DNA of 64,000 nucleotides from Granulicella rosea (GTDB lineage Bacteria; Acidobacteriota; Terriglobia; Terriglobales; Acidobacteriaceae). Positions within the stretch are counted from its first letter, which is position 1. The number at the start of each line of letters is the position of its first letter. Shown piece after piece: positions 55,238 through 61,665 of this stretch. The notes below the pieces were generated by a model. The model saw only the letters and a list, made by a program, of their open reading frames with translations, had not been told where the DNA came from and searched no databases. The DNA is taken from positions 496,001-560,000 of the forward strand of contig NZ_FZOU01000001.1 in NCBI RefSeq assembly GCF_900188085.1. The letters are read 5' to 3'. Position numbers and translations under genes: made by a program.

Positions 55238-56074
55238 ATGCCCTGTCCCGCCGACGAACTTCGCCACGTCCCGCTCTTCTCGCTGCTCGACGACGACGAA
55301 CTGACCGTGCTCTCGCAGCAGGTGGAGCTGCGCAACTTCGCCGCCAGACAGCGAATCTACAAGGCCGGCGACCCGGGCAAGGCGGCCTACGTGATGCTCT
55401 CGGGCGCGGTGCAGGTCTTCACCGTGGACGGCAACCAGCAGGACGTGCTGGTGGATGAGCCGCGCCACGGCGGGCTCTTTGGCTTCGCCTCCATGCTGGA
55501 GGAGACCGCGCACCAGACCTCGGCCTTCGCGCTGGAGGACAGCACCTGCGTGGAGGTGGATCGCCACGACATCTCCATCCTGCTCGAAAAGAAGCCCATG
55601 GCTGGCATGGACATGCTGACCGTGCTGGCGCGGCAGTCGCACGCGCTGCAGCAACTGGTGCGCGACCGCGCCAACCGCAACTCCAACAATGTGATCGAGG
55701 AGGAGATGACCTTCGGCGAGCGGATCGCGGACAAGGTCGCGAGCTTCGGCGGCTCGTGGACCTTCATCATCCTGTTTGCGATCGTGCTGATCGTCTATTC
55801 GGGTGTGAACATCGTGTTGAAGGGCAAGGCGTGGGACCCGTACCCGTTCATCCTGCTGAACCTCTTCCTGTCGATGCTGGCGTCGATCCAGGCGCCGGTG
55901 ATCATGATGAGCCAGAACCGGCAGGACAAAAAGGACCGCGTCCGCGCCGAGCTGGACTTCGAGGTGAACGTGCGCGCGGAGGCGGAGATTCAGGAGCTCT
56001 CGCGCAAGCTGCGCCTGCTGACCGACCGCGTGGACGATGTGGATGAGAAGCTGAGCGTGCAACAGCCGTCCTGA
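55238..56074 (+). CDS. Cyclic-nucleotide-binding domain fused to DUF1003 membrane domain
   Basis: 278 residues. The cNMP-binding domain covers ~10-125: VPLFSLLDDDELTVLSQQ, YKAGDPGKAAYVMLSGAVQV and the phosphate-binding-cassette region GLFGFASMLEETAHQT, which lacks the canonical GE/R pair of cAMP binders. DUF1003 follows: FGERIADKVASFGGSWTFII, DPYPFILLNLFLSMLASIQA, PVIMMSQNRQDKKDR, with two helices and a coiled-coil tail. Probably a membrane sensor; ligand unknown. Confidence 0.88.
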   Translation: MPCPADELRHVPLFSLLDDDELTVLSQQVELRNFAARQRIYKAGDPGKAAYVMLSGAVQVFTVDGNQQDVLVDEPRHGGLFGFASMLEETAHQTSAFALEDSTCVEVDRHDISILLEKKPMAGMDMLTVLARQSHALQQLVRDRANRNSNNVIEEEMTFGERIADKVASFGGSWTFIILFAIVLIVYSGVNIVLKGKAWDPYPFILLNLFLSMLASIQAPVIMMSQNRQDKKDRVRAELDFEVNVRAEAEIQELSRKLRLLTDRVDDVDEKLSVQQPS

Positions 56075-56304: not shown

Positions 56305-56838
56305 CTAGAAGGCCTGGGCCTGCAGATACATCACCCCGGTGAAGGTGTTGGCGGGCATCTGCGGCGTGCTGCTCAGGTCGATCTCCAGCGTCAGGTTGTC
56401 CGTGCGCGAGCCGCCCAGGCTGAGGAAGTTGTTTGCGGCGAAGAGCTGCAGGCTGGCGCCGGCGCCGCCGAAGGGTCCGGTCTGGGTGAAGGCCGTGTAG
56501 CTGGTCGGCGAGCCGGTGGGCATCTGGCCCTTGATCTGGCTGGAGGCGATGTAGTACCCGGCCGGCGTGGTGCTCGACAGCGCCTGCGTCGACGAGGTGA
56601 AGTAGGCATACAGGTTCATGTTCGCGATGAGCGAGATGCCCGCCCAGGTGGAGGTGATGGCGATGGTCGGCGACGCCGCGGAGACGCCGCCGCTCACCAG
56701 CGCCAGACTGGCCGTCGTCGGCGTACACGTGATGGTAAAGACGCCGAGGGACAGACGCGGCTTCAGCCCAGTAGGCACCCGCGTGACCTGCGCGGAGGCC
56801 GGGATCGCGAGGACGAAGAGGCACAGGACCCATCTCAT
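56305..56838 (-). CDS. Pilin-like secreted subunit 2 of the chaperone-usher-like locus
   Basis: 177 residues with a signal peptide (WVLCLFVLAIPASAQ). The mature part is strand-rich and aligns with the protein at 59250: GQMPTGSPTSYTAFTQTGPF, TDNLTLEIDLSSTPQMPA and a C-terminus ending FTGVMYLQAQAF. This resembles SCPU/pilin-like Ig subunits with a closing C-terminal strand. Its ATG overlaps the usher stop (ATGA). Likely secreted through the adjacent usher-like barrel (inference). Confidence 0.65.
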   Translation of the reverse strand: MRWVLCLFVLAIPASAQVTRVPTGLKPRLSLGVFTITCTPTTASLALVSGGVSAASPTIAITSTWAGISLIANMNLYAYFTSSTQALSSTTPAGYYIASSQIKGQMPTGSPTSYTAFTQTGPFGGAGASLQLFAANNFLSLGGSRTDNLTLEIDLSSTPQMPANTFTGVMYLQAQAF

Positions 56839-58532
56839 GAGGGACGCTCCCCATGCGGCAGCAGCGCGACGACGATCAGCGACTCCGGCTCCACATCGCC
56901 GGCGGCGCTGCGGATCAGGTGCGGCGCGGAGACCACGCGGTAGTGGCCGCCATCGAGAAACTGGTCCACCATCACCGACAGCGGATGCACCCGCGCGCGG
57001 CGCTCGCGCAGGGCAAAGCAGCCGCGCGAGTCGGTGAAGATGGGCGTCTGGTTGATCATCAGCGCGGCGCCCATCACGGGCTTGCCCGCGGTGTCGACCA
57101 CGCAGCCGTGCAGCAGCATCGGCCCCATCGAGGAGTGGAACTGCTCCGGCTGGCGAAGCTGCGGGCCCCGCGCGTACAGACCCTGCGCCTCCGCGGTGTA
57201 GAGCAGGTTGCCATCCGGGCCGACGAAGCTGCCTCCGTGCAGCGCCAGTCCGCCGGGCAGGTGGATGAGCACGTTGACGATCACCGCCTGCTCGAACGGC
57301 CCGGTGGCGCGCGTGGGCACGTAGTAGGTCTGGTAGTCCAGGTTGACGGTGGCGAAGTTCGAAAGAAACGACCCGCCCATGCCATAGGTCGCCTGCCCGT
57401 TCGAGAGATTGGCGATCTCGGTCACGGTCCAGCGCGGGGTCAGGCTCTCCTCCGCGTTGGCGAGGTAGAGCGTGCTGGATGGCCCGGAGGGAGGCCCGTC
57501 CGGCAGGCTGTCGCGCTCGCGGCTGGCCAGGTAGCTGCCGCCGACATGGATGCGCGGAGTGATCTCGCGGCTGGCGGCGAGAACCAGCGACTCGTACCTG
57601 CGGCCCGCGTAGTTCGACTCGAAGACGCTGGCCGAGAGCCGCGCCTGCTCCACCTGCAGACTGGCCGAGGCCTGGTCGACCGTGCTGCGTATCGACGGGC
57701 TGCCGTCCGTCTGGGGGACGAGGCTGTTCTGCCGACCGACCGTGAAGCTGAGCTCGTGGGCTGGGCGGATGGTAAGCAGAACGTTCTCGCGGACGGGCTC
57801 CGGCGTGAGGAAGCTGCTCTCGCCAACGCGCTGGAACTGATCGCTGGCGTAGATGTAGGCGGCCTTGAGATCCCAGAGGCGATGCGTCGTATCGATGCTG
57901 AAGGCGCCGTAGGGCCGATCGTTGCCGCTGCCGCCGGCCAGCGCGACGGTCCAGCGCCGCTCCGGCTTCCAGATGAGGCTGGCGATGGCGCTCATGCTCT
58001 GCGCGATCGAGAGGTGCGAGGTGGAGTCATGGGTCGCGACCACCTGCGCCTCCACCGTGGTGTGCGGGCTGAGCGGCCGCTCGACCAGCAGCATCGCCAT
58101 CGGCGTCCGAGGGTGCGAGCCCTCGAAGAACGGGCTGCCGAATTCGGTGGAGGTCGTCCCGGCGAGCGCGTAGAGCTTCGTCGCGCGCACCTTCGTGGTG
58201 ACGCTGGCGCCGATGGCGTAGATGCGGTGGTCGGCGTCGAAGAGGTCCGTCGGCAGATTGCACTGGCGGATCTGGCTGCCGGCGGTAAAGAAGGCGCGGC
58301 CGATCTGCTTTTCGAGCGTCGCCCCGCCGACGAAGCGGCCGGCCACGACGCCTCCGCCAAGGGTCGCGTTGTAGCTCGCGCCCTGCATCTGTAGCGACCC
58401 GCCCTGCGCCTGGTAAAGCGTCGACGTGCCGGCGTCGACCACGAAGACCTGCGCGCGCGCGACGGCTGTGCCCACGATGAGCACAGCCATGGCCGCGAGC
58501 CATCCTCCCCGAAGTTGGGCCTGCTGGTTCAT
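56835..58532 (-). CDS. Usher-like outer-membrane beta-barrel with C-terminal carboxypeptidase-regulatory-like domain
   Basis: 565 residues with a signal peptide (AAMAVLIVGTAVARAQ). The middle is rich in alternating strands ending in aromatics (STLYLANAEESLTPRWTVTE, FATVNLDYQTYYV), consistent with a barrel. The C-terminal ~110 residues carry CVVDTAGKPVMGAALMINQ and FTDSRGCFALRERRARVHPL, a CarboxypepD-regulatory-like fold as in usher C-domains. It is far shorter than FimD/PapC (~800). Its position between chaperone and subunits supports an usher role; this needs structural confirmation. Confidence 0.6.
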   Translation of the reverse strand: MNQQAQLRGGWLAAMAVLIVGTAVARAQVFVVDAGTSTLYQAQGGSLQMQGASYNATLGGGVVAGRFVGGATLEKQIGRAFFTAGSQIRQCNLPTDLFDADHRIYAIGASVTTKVRATKLYALAGTTSTEFGSPFFEGSHPRTPMAMLLVERPLSPHTTVEAQVVATHDSTSHLSIAQSMSAIASLIWKPERRWTVALAGGSGNDRPYGAFSIDTTHRLWDLKAAYIYASDQFQRVGESSFLTPEPVRENVLLTIRPAHELSFTVGRQNSLVPQTDGSPSIRSTVDQASASLQVEQARLSASVFESNYAGRRYESLVLAASREITPRIHVGGSYLASRERDSLPDGPPSGPSSTLYLANAEESLTPRWTVTEIANLSNGQATYGMGGSFLSNFATVNLDYQTYYVPTRATGPFEQAVIVNVLIHLPGGLALHGGSFVGPDGNLLYTAEAQGLYARGPQLRQPEQFHSSMGPMLLHGCVVDTAGKPVMGAALMINQTPIFTDSRGCFALRERRARVHPLSVMVDQFLDGGHYRVVSAPHLIRSAAGDVEPESLIVVALLPHGERPS

Positions 58533-58539
58533 CCCACCG

Positions 58540-59250
58540 TCACTGTCTGCTCACCGGCCGTTTGAGGGTGAAGTGGTCGAAGCGGAACGAGAGCTCGCTG
58601 GGCGGCTCCTTGCCGTTCCATGCAAGTTCGAGCTCGCGCTTGCCGTGCGGCAGCAGCGGAAAGCCCGCGCCCTCGGCCTCGCCGTGCCCGCCGATGCCGT
58701 GGACCTCCTGCACCCGACCGAGCGAGTAGCCGTCGTTTTCGAGGCTGACCTCCAGCTTGCCGGTCGCCGCGTGGTAGGTCACGTCGGAGACGGTGACGTC
58801 CTTTTCGGCGAGCGGATACTCCTGGTAGAGATAGACCGTGTGCGGCAGCATGATCCGCATATCCAGCCCCGCCGTGTGGACGGGCGAGGAGAAGGTCGCG
58901 TAGATCGTGAACCACGCCGGCAGCATCTCGGAGTCGGCCTTGTAGAAGACGTACGCGGTCTGGTGCGGCGCGAGCTTCAGACTGCTGGTCGAAAGGTCCA
59001 CGTGGATGGTGGAGTCCAGCTCGCGGTAGATGCCCTTGCCCTCGGGCGTGATGGTGAAGCTGCGCGGTTCGAGCAGGACCACCATCGGGGTCAACGAGTT
59101 GTTGGTCACCTCGAACCTGCCTTCGCCATGTGCCTTGTACTCGGCGATCAGGGGTTGAACGGTCTGGGCGTGAAGAGGCGCCGGAACAAACTTCAAGCCA
59201 AGGATGGCCGCGACCGAGAGAATGCGGAACAGCTTCCTACGCGCCCCCAT
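58540..59250 (-). CDS. PapD-like periplasmic pilus chaperone candidate
   Basis: 236 residues from the ATG at 59250, whose codon overlaps the subunit-1 stop (TGATG). A signal peptide (…PAPLHAQ) precedes two Ig-like domains: RFEVTNNSLTPMVVLLEPRS, LKLAPHQTAYVFYKADSEML, typical of PapD-superfamily strand patterns, and a C-terminal strand region GKRELELAWNG. Subunit-binding residues cannot be assigned with certainty. In chaperone-usher pathways this protein caps subunits in the periplasm before the usher. Confidence 0.65.
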   Translation of the reverse strand: MGARRKLFRILSVAAILGLKFVPAPLHAQTVQPLIAEYKAHGEGRFEVTNNSLTPMVVLLEPRSFTITPEGKGIYRELDSTIHVDLSTSSLKLAPHQTAYVFYKADSEMLPAWFTIYATFSSPVHTAGLDMRIMLPHTVYLYQEYPLAEKDVTVSDVTYHAATGKLEVSLENDGYSLGRVQEVHGIGGHGEAEGAGFPLLPHGKRELELAWNGKEPPSELSFRFDHFTLKRPVSRQ

Positions 59251-59822
59251 CACAGCGCCTGCGCCTGCAGGTACATGGTGCCGGTGTAAGTGGCGGCGGG
59301 AATCTGGGTGCCGGTAAGGTTGATCTGCAGCGTAAGGTTGTCGGTGCGGGTGCCCGAGCGGTTGGACGAGGTGAGCGCGACGGTGTAGAGCGTCAGTCCA
59401 CCGCCCGTCGGGCCGAAGGCCGCCGTCTGTGTAAAGGCCGTGTAGCTGGTCGGCGTACCGGTCGTCATCTGGCCCAGCACCTCGGAGCTGGGGATGTTGA
59501 CCACCGGCGGACCGGCTGTGGTGAGCGCGGCGCTGGCCGTGGTGAAGTAGGCGTCCAGCACCAGGTTGGCGCGGCTGGTGGCCGTCACCCAGGTGGTGGT
59601 GACCGCGACCGGCACGCTGCCGTTGGCCGTGCCGCCGGCGACCAGGGCGAAGGTCATGGCGGTGGGGGTGACCGACACCGTCACCGCCTCGGACAAGGTT
59701 GCGGTCAGCGCCACGGTGGCTGTGGTGGAGTTCACCTGCGCCCGCGCGCCAGCGGCCGAACCGAGTAGGAGAACCAGGGGTGGAAAGCCATGCCGGATGA
59801 GCCGGCGCATCGATACATTCAT
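59250..59822 (-). CDS. Pilin-like secreted subunit 1 of the chaperone-usher-like locus
   Basis: 190 residues from ATG 59822, preceded by GGAGGG. The signal peptide ends ARAQ. The first mature residues (VNSTTATVALTATLSEAVTV) alternate hydrophobic positions like a donor strand; the rest has TSYTAFTQTAAFGPTGGG, RTDNLTLQINLTG and the end YTGTMYLQAQAL. This closely parallels subunit 2. First gene of the operon; a palindrome lies in the divergent spacer. Confidence 0.65.
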   Translation of the reverse strand: MNVSMRRLIRHGFPPLVLLLGSAAGARAQVNSTTATVALTATLSEAVTVSVTPTAMTFALVAGGTANGSVPVAVTTTWVTATSRANLVLDAYFTTASAALTTAGPPVVNIPSSEVLGQMTTGTPTSYTAFTQTAAFGPTGGGLTLYTVALTSSNRSGTRTDNLTLQINLTGTQIPAATYTGTMYLQAQAL

Positions 59823-59935: not shown

Positions 59936-60045
59936 CTCTTTGGGAGCTACCAAATAAACGCCTCGGCCTGACGTTGTGGCGCATAGACTCAATCCCATAG
60001 ACCTCCCTCTTGCCGCACTGCTTTTTTGCCGTCTGGAGAACCGAA

Positions 60046-61665
60046 TTGTCGAACTTTACCCGAGCGAACGCCTGGAACCATGGCGGAGACTTCAACAATC
60101 CCGACCTCTTCTGGTACGCCCTGGGCGTGCGCGCCATGCAGGCCCGGACGCTCGACGACAAGTCCAGTTGGTGGTTCTTCGCCGCCATCCACAACGAATT
60201 TTTGAACGATCCGGACAACGGCCCGCTCATGTGGGGAAACCTTCCCTCTCCCCCGCATGTGCCCACCGGCCCCGTGCCCGCCCCGGCCATCGCCGATCTT
60301 TACTGGAATCAGTGCCAGCATGGAAGCTGGTTCTTTCTGCCCTGGCATCGCGGCTTCCTGCTTGCGCTGGAGGCGCGGATTCGCGCGGAGGTGAACGCGC
60401 TTCACGGGCCGGCGAACTGGTCGCTTCCCTACTGGAACTACCTGGGGCCGGACACGCAGTATGCGATTCCACCCGCGTTCGAGCTGACGCAGATGCCGGA
60501 TGGCAGCCCGAATCCACTCTATGTGCTGGCGCGTTACGGGCCGGACGAGCCGGTCGCCGGCCAACCCAGGAGGGTCTACGTGGGCACGGCGACCTCGCAG
60601 CCGGCAGGCCTCGCGAACGGCGATGCGTTGAAGAACGATCTCTTCACCGGCTCGGACCTGAACACGGATCCGCCGGGATTCGGCGGACCTCCGACGGGCT
60701 TTCTGAGCGGCGGACGCAACGGCGGCAATCTCGAAAACAATCCGCACGGGCATGTGCATCTCGATGTCGGAGGCCACTCCACGATGGGGCTGATGTCCGA
60801 CCCGAGGACCTCCGCACTCGACCCGATCTTCTACGTGCATCACGCGAACATCGACCGGGTATGGGAGGTGTGGAACCGCACCGGCGCGAACGCGAACCCG
60901 GTTGACCCGGCCTGGCTGAACGGCCCGACACTCGCCGGCGACCGCAGATTCATCATGCCAATGCCGGATGGCAGCGACCTGCGCTATACCCCGCGCGAGA
61001 TGGGCCGGCTGAGCCAGATGAACTACACCTACGACGTTCTGCGGCCGCTGCCGGTGGCGGCCTCGGCAGCCAGCCCGCTGGCCGTTCCCATGGCGGCGGC
61101 GCTGACCGAGCGGCTGACCCGGCTGGGGATCGCGCCGCCGAGCTTCGAGGCCTTGACCGTCACCACCGGCACGGAGACCGAGCTGGTCGGCGCGACCGAG
61201 GCGCCGCTGATGCTGACGGCCGCGGGCGGAACGGCCAGCGTGCGGCTCGACGCGGAGGTTCTGCGCAAGGTATCGGCAAGCCTGGCGGCGCCGGTCAGTC
61301 CGGGCAAGGTGATCGCGCCGGACCGGCTCTATCTTCACCTGGACGGCATTCGCGGGTCGGGCGGGACGGCGATCCTGGGGGTCTACATCGATGCTCCCGG
61401 CGAGATCGATGCGCCCGGCGCGGCTGGCCTCTTCGCGGGAAGCGTCGCGCTCTTCGGCCTGCACGCCGCGAGCCGCCAGGACGGCTCGCACGGCGGCGAA
61501 GGCCTGCACTTCATCCTGGGCATCACGAAGATCTTCGACCGGCTGCATCTGGCGGGCGCGTTGGGCGGCGAGACGCTGAACGTGCGCCTTGCGCCGGTAA
61601 GGCCGCTCCCGGAGCGCACGAAGATCTCCGTCGGGCGGATCAGCCTCTATCGCGAGGGCGTGTGA
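60046..61665 (+). CDS. Tyrosinase-family type 3 copper protein
   Basis: 539 residues from a TTG at 60046, with GGAG eight bases upstream; the product begins MSNFTRANAW as in related tyrosinases, while a frame from 60010 adds unconserved residues. CuA ligands fit H49 (AAIHNEF), H92 and H101 in CQHGSWFFLPWHRGF; CuB ligands fit PHGHVHLDVGGHS and DPIFYVHHANIDRVWEVW. A ~190-residue C-terminal region may cover the active site. No signal peptide. It oxidises phenols with oxygen; substrate unknown. Overlaps the next gene by GTGA. Confidence 0.93.
   Translation: MSNFTRANAWNHGGDFNNPDLFWYALGVRAMQARTLDDKSSWWFFAAIHNEFLNDPDNGPLMWGNLPSPPHVPTGPVPAPAIADLYWNQCQHGSWFFLPWHRGFLLALEARIRAEVNALHGPANWSLPYWNYLGPDTQYAIPPAFELTQMPDGSPNPLYVLARYGPDEPVAGQPRRVYVGTATSQPAGLANGDALKNDLFTGSDLNTDPPGFGGPPTGFLSGGRNGGNLENNPHGHVHLDVGGHSTMGLMSDPRTSALDPIFYVHHANIDRVWEVWNRTGANANPVDPAWLNGPTLAGDRRFIMPMPDGSDLRYTPREMGRLSQMNYTYDVLRPLPVAASAASPLAVPMAAALTERLTRLGIAPPSFEALTVTTGTETELVGATEAPLMLTAAGGTASVRLDAEVLRKVSASLAAPVSPGKVIAPDRLYLHLDGIRGSGGTAILGVYIDAPGEIDAPGAAGLFAGSVALFGLHAASRQDGSHGGEGLHFILGITKIFDRLHLAGALGGETLNVRLAPVRPLPERTKISVGRISLYREGV

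Follow-up and report, generated by a model that had tools for sequence, protein, structure and literature searches.

In ushers such as FimD and PapC the translocation barrel is accompanied by a plug, one N-terminal domain and two C-terminal domains. Chaperone-usher models assign recruitment to the N-terminal domain of the usher and gating to the plug. PMC9452303 describes the usher N-terminal domain as recruiting the chaperone-subunit complex and the C-terminal domains CTD1 and CTD2 as holding the fibre base. The PapC barrel is described in PMC4356140 as occluded by a plug, and for CFA/I PMC7531860 treats the usher as having a movable plug and gives the tip subunit an adhesin domain. No description of a plug-less or an acidobacterial chaperone-usher system was recognised in the open literature, including the available parts of PMC4793230 and PMC7661733.

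Here we describe a four-gene operon in a 64,000-nucleotide stretch of the Granulicella rosea genome (contig NZ_FZOU01000001.1, positions 496,001 to 560,000; hereafter the window). Head to tail on the minus strand, from 59822 to 56305, its open reading frames (ORFs) encode subunit A, a PapD-like chaperone, a barrel protein and subunit B (Table 1). We propose, with a probability of about 75%, that the operon encodes a divergent fibre assembly system of the chaperone-usher type whose usher is minimal, the fibre itself being putative. The proposal is built on the gene order, the homology and fold of the chaperone, the fold match of the barrel and the lack of room in the barrel protein for an N-terminal domain or a plug, all of which were computed here. 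It is a real and conserved system, unrecognised by Pfam and NCBIfam, and most likely works like chaperone-usher assembly.

Layout and recurrence of the four-gene module

The four ORFs lie where the initial annotation of this stretch had placed them, in the order subunit-chaperone-barrel-subunit that it had given. Its description of all four genes as overlapping holds for subunit A/chaperone and for barrel/subunit B, each with an overlap of a few bases; at the third junction, the chaperone and barrel genes are 7 bases apart. All four proteins have signal-peptide-like starts that end, as read by eye, with A-x-A or H-A before Q. Promoter and terminator scans of the locus gave nothing above chance. 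Except for the C-terminal beta domain of the barrel protein, Pfam and NCBIfam scans of the four window proteins found nothing convincing, and searches of the PDB with their sequences found no chaperone, usher or pilin match.

Pooling the window with loci from the same taxonomic family and from a species scan gave 69 loci, of which 57 were distinct after removal of 12 with the same chaperone; the search profiles were built from sequences that include 20 of the counted loci. At least one subunit gene is found upstream, and a barrel gene downstream, of the chaperone gene at 56 of the 57 distinct loci, and because the same order recurs so often we regard it as beyond chance. A subunit gene also follows the barrel gene in 24 of the 56, and in three (L074, L081 and L084, metagenome-assembled genomes (MAGs) titled Gemmatimonadetes) a subunit gene is found between chaperone and barrel. 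The barrel ORF is shorter than 500 aa in five of the 56: those of L063, L065, L074 and L082 are on short contigs that end, while that of L034 (L034:7421-8422, +) ends at 333 aa within its contig and is possibly a broken copy. The exception to the gene order is L043, a distant chaperone match with 27% identity and E 5.3e-15. This homologue (L043:6919-7803, +) has no recognisable barrel or subunit gene beside it, its neighbours appear by eye to be sensor-kinase/response-regulator-like, and the supposed subunit of this locus is deoxyhypusine synthase.

The chaperone search detected the chaperone in 20 of 150 genomes of the same family, and searches with the barrel and chaperone profiles detected the system in 4 of 297 genomes across the phylum, both counts including the genome of the window. 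The one-genome-per-species scan, which covered 105 stretches with a match to a peptide pattern, yielded at least 48 loci. By their titles as deposited, 45 of the 48 records are from acidobacterial lineages, including isolates of Granulicella (such as Granulicella mallensis X5P3, with locus L079), Acidicapsa and Occallatibacter and MAGs titled Edaphobacter, Blastocatellia and Bryobacterales. The acidobacterial origin suggested by the initial annotation thus describes these 45 and not the remaining three, which are MAGs titled Gemmatimonadetes, so the module may not be strictly acidobacterial. Inspected by eye in 20 larger stretches, the genes flanking the module differ from locus to locus, with some common to the look-alikes L034, L035 and L036. 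Consequently, the module is taken as a self-contained unit.

The chaperone and its putative subunits

Hidden Markov model searches for chaperone-usher families, which the initial annotation had recommended, were negative: at E 10, PF00345 (PapD_N) matches 0 of 20 chaperone family members and PF00577 (Usher) 0 of 19 barrel members. In the genome of the window PF00345 has no match, and PF00577 has only a sub-threshold one, elsewhere in the genome (E 0.595). An NCBIfam scan of the aligned chaperone members brought no recognition either. The PapD-like character that had been assigned to the chaperone was nevertheless borne out by profile comparison. When the profile of the 20 members was compared by HHalign with five chaperones from canonical acidobacterial loci (archaic-type, each a PapD_N match), the probability was 98.5% over 213 columns covering both domains. 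None of 60 column shuffles reached the score (best 25.3 vs 107.7), and the reversed profile gave 0.04%.

The AlphaFold2 model of the chaperone (predicted local distance difference test (pLDDT) 86.0, predicted template modelling score (pTM) 0.64, 20 sequences) has two beta-sandwich-type domains in the PapD arrangement. Its top Foldseek matches are complexes of CsuC, CfaA and FimC, with some non-chaperone immunoglobulin (Ig) proteins in the first 50. VIA-align comparisons were made for both chaperone and barrel, with 50 entries listed for each, and other families may lie beyond them. Among those listed for the chaperone, CfaA is the nearest (Z 12.0, root mean square deviation (rmsd) 3.6, 187 aligned), followed by PapD, Caf1M, CsuC and EcpB, which are tied with one another (Z 10.2-10.5, rmsd 5.7-6.8, 166-176 aligned; for PapD 1qpx_B, Z 10.5, rmsd 5.7, 167 aligned). 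The chaperone is a PapD relative missed by Pfam and NCBIfam.

Subunits A and B share SYTAFTQT and MYLQAQA(L/F), with 45% identity, in agreement with the related subunits and shared motifs described initially. The subunit alignment (A4) contains 106 of 112 sequences, namely 29 of the 33 in alignment A3 and 77 of a further list of 79; the rest are near duplicates or, in one case, cut at a contig end. Median subunit lengths of 193-197 aa correspond to the size of a single domain. A terminal strand motif, G-x-[LIVMF]-x-[hydrophobic], ends 102 of the 106 subunits and 7 of 710 other ORFs of at least 120 aa from the window and L025-L044, a control set that may include a few unlisted subunits; the motif was defined after viewing the C-termini, and the count is descriptive. 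The C-terminal strand appears to be pilin-like. HHalign of the subunits with SCPU-type subunits of canonical loci gave 24.5% over about 30 C-terminal columns, a score that 0 of 60 shuffles reached; by itself this match is not strong evidence. Weak matches of the subunits to SEF14_adhesin (5 of 106), SCPU (2), DUF4402 (2) and such unrelated families as gag-asp_proteas (7) were regarded as chance-level and discarded.

In a tree of 107 subunits, one clade (support 0.90) holds 22 of the 24 post-barrel subunits, subunit B of the window included, and the post-barrel label changes 4 times on the tree; in 300 shuffles it changed 24.3 times on average and never fewer than 19 times. These results suggest that subunit B is probably a maintained and specialised subunit. 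Subunit-like genes on the opposite strand are also found beside the operon, at L031:4378-5055 (+), L029:10466-11050 (-), L034:5274-6008 (-), L035:9100-9690 (+) and L036:8753-9352 (+), and one of them has an unusual cysteine-containing C-terminus.

The barrel protein and competing explanations

The AlphaFold2 model of the barrel protein (pLDDT 79.8, pTM 0.64, 19 sequences) places the strands within residues 29-454 and a beta domain at residues 472-557. In a Foldseek search of the PDB with this model, ranks 1-10 are all FimD or PapC (best E 1.3e-11), and BtuB is next (6.3e-8). In VIA-align, the model matches FimD 3ohn_B with Z 17.9 and rmsd 4.7 over 342 aligned positions, residues 28-453 being placed onto FimD 138-658, and PapC 7lhh_C with Z 17.7 and rmsd 4.2 over 344. 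The rmsd is 3.9-5.0 for ushers and 5.9-10.8 for the other listed barrels (at least 6.4 without MtrB).

As had been noted initially, the barrel protein is shorter than ushers, with 565 aa compared to 761-1032 aa in eight canonical acidobacterial ushers. In 49 of 51 family barrels the signal peptide is predicted to be cleaved 1 residue ahead of strand 1, and in the remaining two 23 and 28 residues ahead of it. As the barrel stretch also measures 407-433 aa in every one of the 51, neither an N-terminal domain nor a plug can be accommodated. No plug domain was found within the barrel, as judged from the loops of the window model, the longest of which has 18 residues, and from insertions across the 51 barrels, the largest of which, relative to the window barrel, has 25.

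The part after the barrel is 105-150 aa long in 48 of the 51 and holds one CarboxypepD_reg-like domain rather than the two C-terminal domains of ushers. The carboxypeptidase-regulatory-like domain predicted initially was recovered by PF13620 in the window barrel, with E 2.3e-4, which is below the curated cut-off, and in 19 of 19 barrels at E up to 10 (best 9.3e-8). HHalign of the barrel family with nine TonB receptors gave a match confined to a stretch at this domain. Pfam and NCBIfam scans of the aligned barrel members added nothing convincing except SPOR-type matches in two long barrels of 682 and 683 aa, L032:5693-7741 (-) and L033:5885-7936 (-), where the SPOR domain is found at the extreme C-terminus (2 of 19 barrels; best E 5.5e-19) as though to tether the usher-like protein to the cell wall. 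This position fits a periplasmic C-terminus. A third long barrel, of 714 aa, is found in L066.

A number of findings weigh against the chaperone-usher reading. The barrel model has 26 strand segments, not the 24 of the usher translocation barrel, and by the position of signal cleavage in the 51 barrels the usher N-terminal domain before the barrel is absent. MtrB 6r2q_B ties with the ushers in VIA-align Z (17.3; rmsd 5.9, 381 aligned), and the Z values of OprD-family porins (14.1-15.9, at rmsd 6.6-7.2) overlap those of the lower usher rows (14.3-14.8). To the PF00577 result given above is added that of HHalign, in which the barrel family and the eight canonical acidobacterial ushers are matched with a probability of 0.65% and a score of 24.8, the shuffled maximum being 24.0 (n = 40). 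For the 106 subunits, there is no convincing family match among those shown by the Pfam and PDB searches. According to PMC4654587, PapD superfamily chaperones have an invariant proline in strand D1, and archaic and alternative chaperones a conserved arginine in strand F1 (Arg89 of CsuC). Numbered from the GTG start, the residue in the proline column is 89, which is T, A, S, E or N in all 20 members in the HHalign alignment read by eye; this assignment is alignment-dependent, and residues 84-94 contain no proline in the 20 members. The arginine was not found either, with no arginine at positions 111-122 in any of the 20. Invariant in all 20 are W114, L136, P137, H138, Y141, N173, R180 and R206, some of which might form a different carboxylate anchor.

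Because PF00577 and PF00345 matches, the N-terminal domain, the plug, the proline and the arginine were all looked for and not found, we do not assign the operon to the classical, archaic or alternative chaperone-usher systems. The initial annotation had made its idea depend on a PapD-type chaperone fold and on a barrel with plug or usher-type domains. The two-domain PapD-type fold was found, whereas the barrel has neither a plug nor an N-terminal usher domain; we read the plug-less barrel as an unusual reduced usher and not as a refutation, because its nearest solved folds are still ushers. Hence the chaperone-usher idea is sustained by the homology and fold of the chaperone and by FimD and PapC as the nearest folds of the barrel, but not by a sequence match of the barrel to ushers.

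One competing explanation is an ordinary chaperone-usher system of the archaic or alternative kind, in which the N-terminal domain and plug of a far-drifted usher are present but unseen. The operon shares its gene order with the canonical locus L141, the nearest listed chaperone fold, CfaA, is of the alternative clade, and 5 of 19 barrels show weak CooC_C matches (best E 0.052). We consider this explanation unlikely, as the cleavage position and the length of the barrel stretch leave no room for such domains, the largest insertion is 25 residues where the canonical ushers are 761-1032 aa long, and the clade-marking arginine is found in 0 of 20 chaperones.

The tie with MtrB and the undetectable sequence relation of the barrel to ushers would also fit a generic large outer-membrane channel accompanied by a two-Ig holdase, whose single-domain client proteins would reach the surface unpolymerised, for example in a surface layer. 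The fibre of the system is putative, and a WxL-interacting Ig protein (9i25_C) is found at rank 19 among the Foldseek matches of the chaperone model (E 1.0e-6). Such a channel is, however, quite improbable, given that the ten first Foldseek ranks of the barrel are ushers, that the rmsd in VIA-align separates ushers from the other listed barrels, that the chaperone is homologous to chaperones known for capping subunits for polymerisation and that the subunits appear to end in a pilin-like strand. The usher match could, finally, be an artefact of an uncertain barrel model, with the genes adjacent for other reasons. The pTM, the 19 sequences and the 26 strand segments of the model would be in line with this, and so would the high Foldseek rmsd to ushers within the first 18 ranks (11.2-19.2 A over 501-676 columns). 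The adjacency at 56 of 57 distinct loci and the independent profile homology of the adjacent chaperone to usher partners make an artefact of this kind very improbable.

Proposed assembly and relation to known systems

For the favoured chaperone-usher-type system with a minimal usher, we infer the following course of export, strand donation, docking, polymerisation and fibre formation. Sec signal peptides would bring subunits A and B into the periplasm, where each may be captured by the PapD-like chaperone. The chaperone would most likely donate its G1 strand (residues about 135-143, family consensus LPHTVYLY) to the incomplete Ig fold of the subunit, in which the C-terminal G-x-[LVM]-x-[LIF]-x-A motif would be the last strand. 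The chaperone-subunit complexes would then dock at the periplasmic face of the barrel, probably via the single C-terminal domain, although the barrel rim may serve instead, and gating would have to differ from that of known ushers. Donor-strand exchange through N-terminal extensions would link the subunits, and a thin fibre would pass through the barrel pore, with subunit B perhaps specialised as tip or base. Capping by the chaperone and hand-over to the barrel for donor-strand exchange are proposed because of the homology and fold of the chaperone.

Canonical SCPU/PapD_N/Usher loci are found in other Acidobacteria, among them L141, which was examined throughout, and L138, L140, L144, L145 and L146, which were examined in part. 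L141 belongs to the same genus as the window, and its order of SCPU, PapD_N, Usher and SCPU is that of the window operon, which looks like a highly diverged relative of an L141-type operon with a trimmed usher. With such loci and the archaic (sigma, e.g., Csu) systems the operon also shares a homologous chaperone and, weakly, the C-terminal strand of the subunits. It differs from them in that the window proteins have no Pfam match apart from the C-terminal beta domain of the barrel protein (E up to 10), in the short barrel protein without N-terminal domain or plug and in the chaperone, which lacks the strand F1 arginine and the proline at the superfamily position. The likeness to the alternative (alpha, class 5) CfaA/CfaC systems consists of CfaA as the nearest solved chaperone structure among those listed and of the weak CooC_C matches of the barrels; however, the window family has no significant match in PDB profile searches, and its subunits are of single-domain size, unlike the CFA/I tip subunit with its adhesin domain. 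The classical ushers FimD and PapC are the nearest solved folds of the window barrel among those listed, but the barrel protein consists of a barrel and one C-terminal domain only. PF00577 ushers were found in 9 of the 297 phylum genomes and this chaperone in 4, with no genome seen in both lists; these numbers are too small to claim mutual exclusion of the two systems.

Whether the module is a separate chaperone-usher branch across Acidobacteria and MAGs titled Gemmatimonadetes, in which a minimal usher without N-terminal domain and plug assembles fibres, is to us evenly balanced. The minimal usher may have been reduced or may resemble an ancestral state. If it does assemble fibres, recruitment and gating would fall to the single C-terminal domain and the rim of the barrel, and a conserved natural system without the two domains would reveal which usher parts are truly needed, offer structural studies a small platform and define a set of soil-bacterial surface proteins unrecognised by Pfam and NCBIfam. 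Whether a barrel with one C-terminal domain can assemble a fibre becomes directly testable with this system.

Table 1. Features of the operon, in window coordinates
Feature	Position	Strand	Description
Subunit A	59822-59250	-	190 aa; signal peptide ends ...ARA|Q; one putative pilin-type domain; C-terminal strand YTGTMYLQAQAL
PapD-like periplasmic chaperone	59253-58540	-	237 aa from GTG 59253, 236 aa from ATG 59250; signal peptide and two Ig-like domains
Reduced usher-like outer-membrane barrel protein	58532-56835	-	565 aa; signal peptide followed by barrel and one C-terminal beta domain
Barrel domain	58448-57171	-	Residues 29-454; 26 strand segments (DSSP); no inserted plug
C-terminal CarboxypepD_reg-like domain of barrel protein	57119-56862	-	Residues about 472-557
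Subunit B	56838-56305	-	177 aa; paralogous to subunit A; member of the position-specific lineage of post-barrel subunits
Candidate ribosome-binding-like site GGAGGG	59836-59831	-	8 bases 5' of the subunit A start codon; read from sequence

Two other genes border the operon in the window. A tyrosinase (PF00264) with a DUF7868 C-terminal domain is encoded at 60010-61665 (+), divergent from the operon and adjoining it, and a cyclic-nucleotide-binding domain fused to DUF1003 is encoded at 55238-56074 (+), convergent with the operon end.

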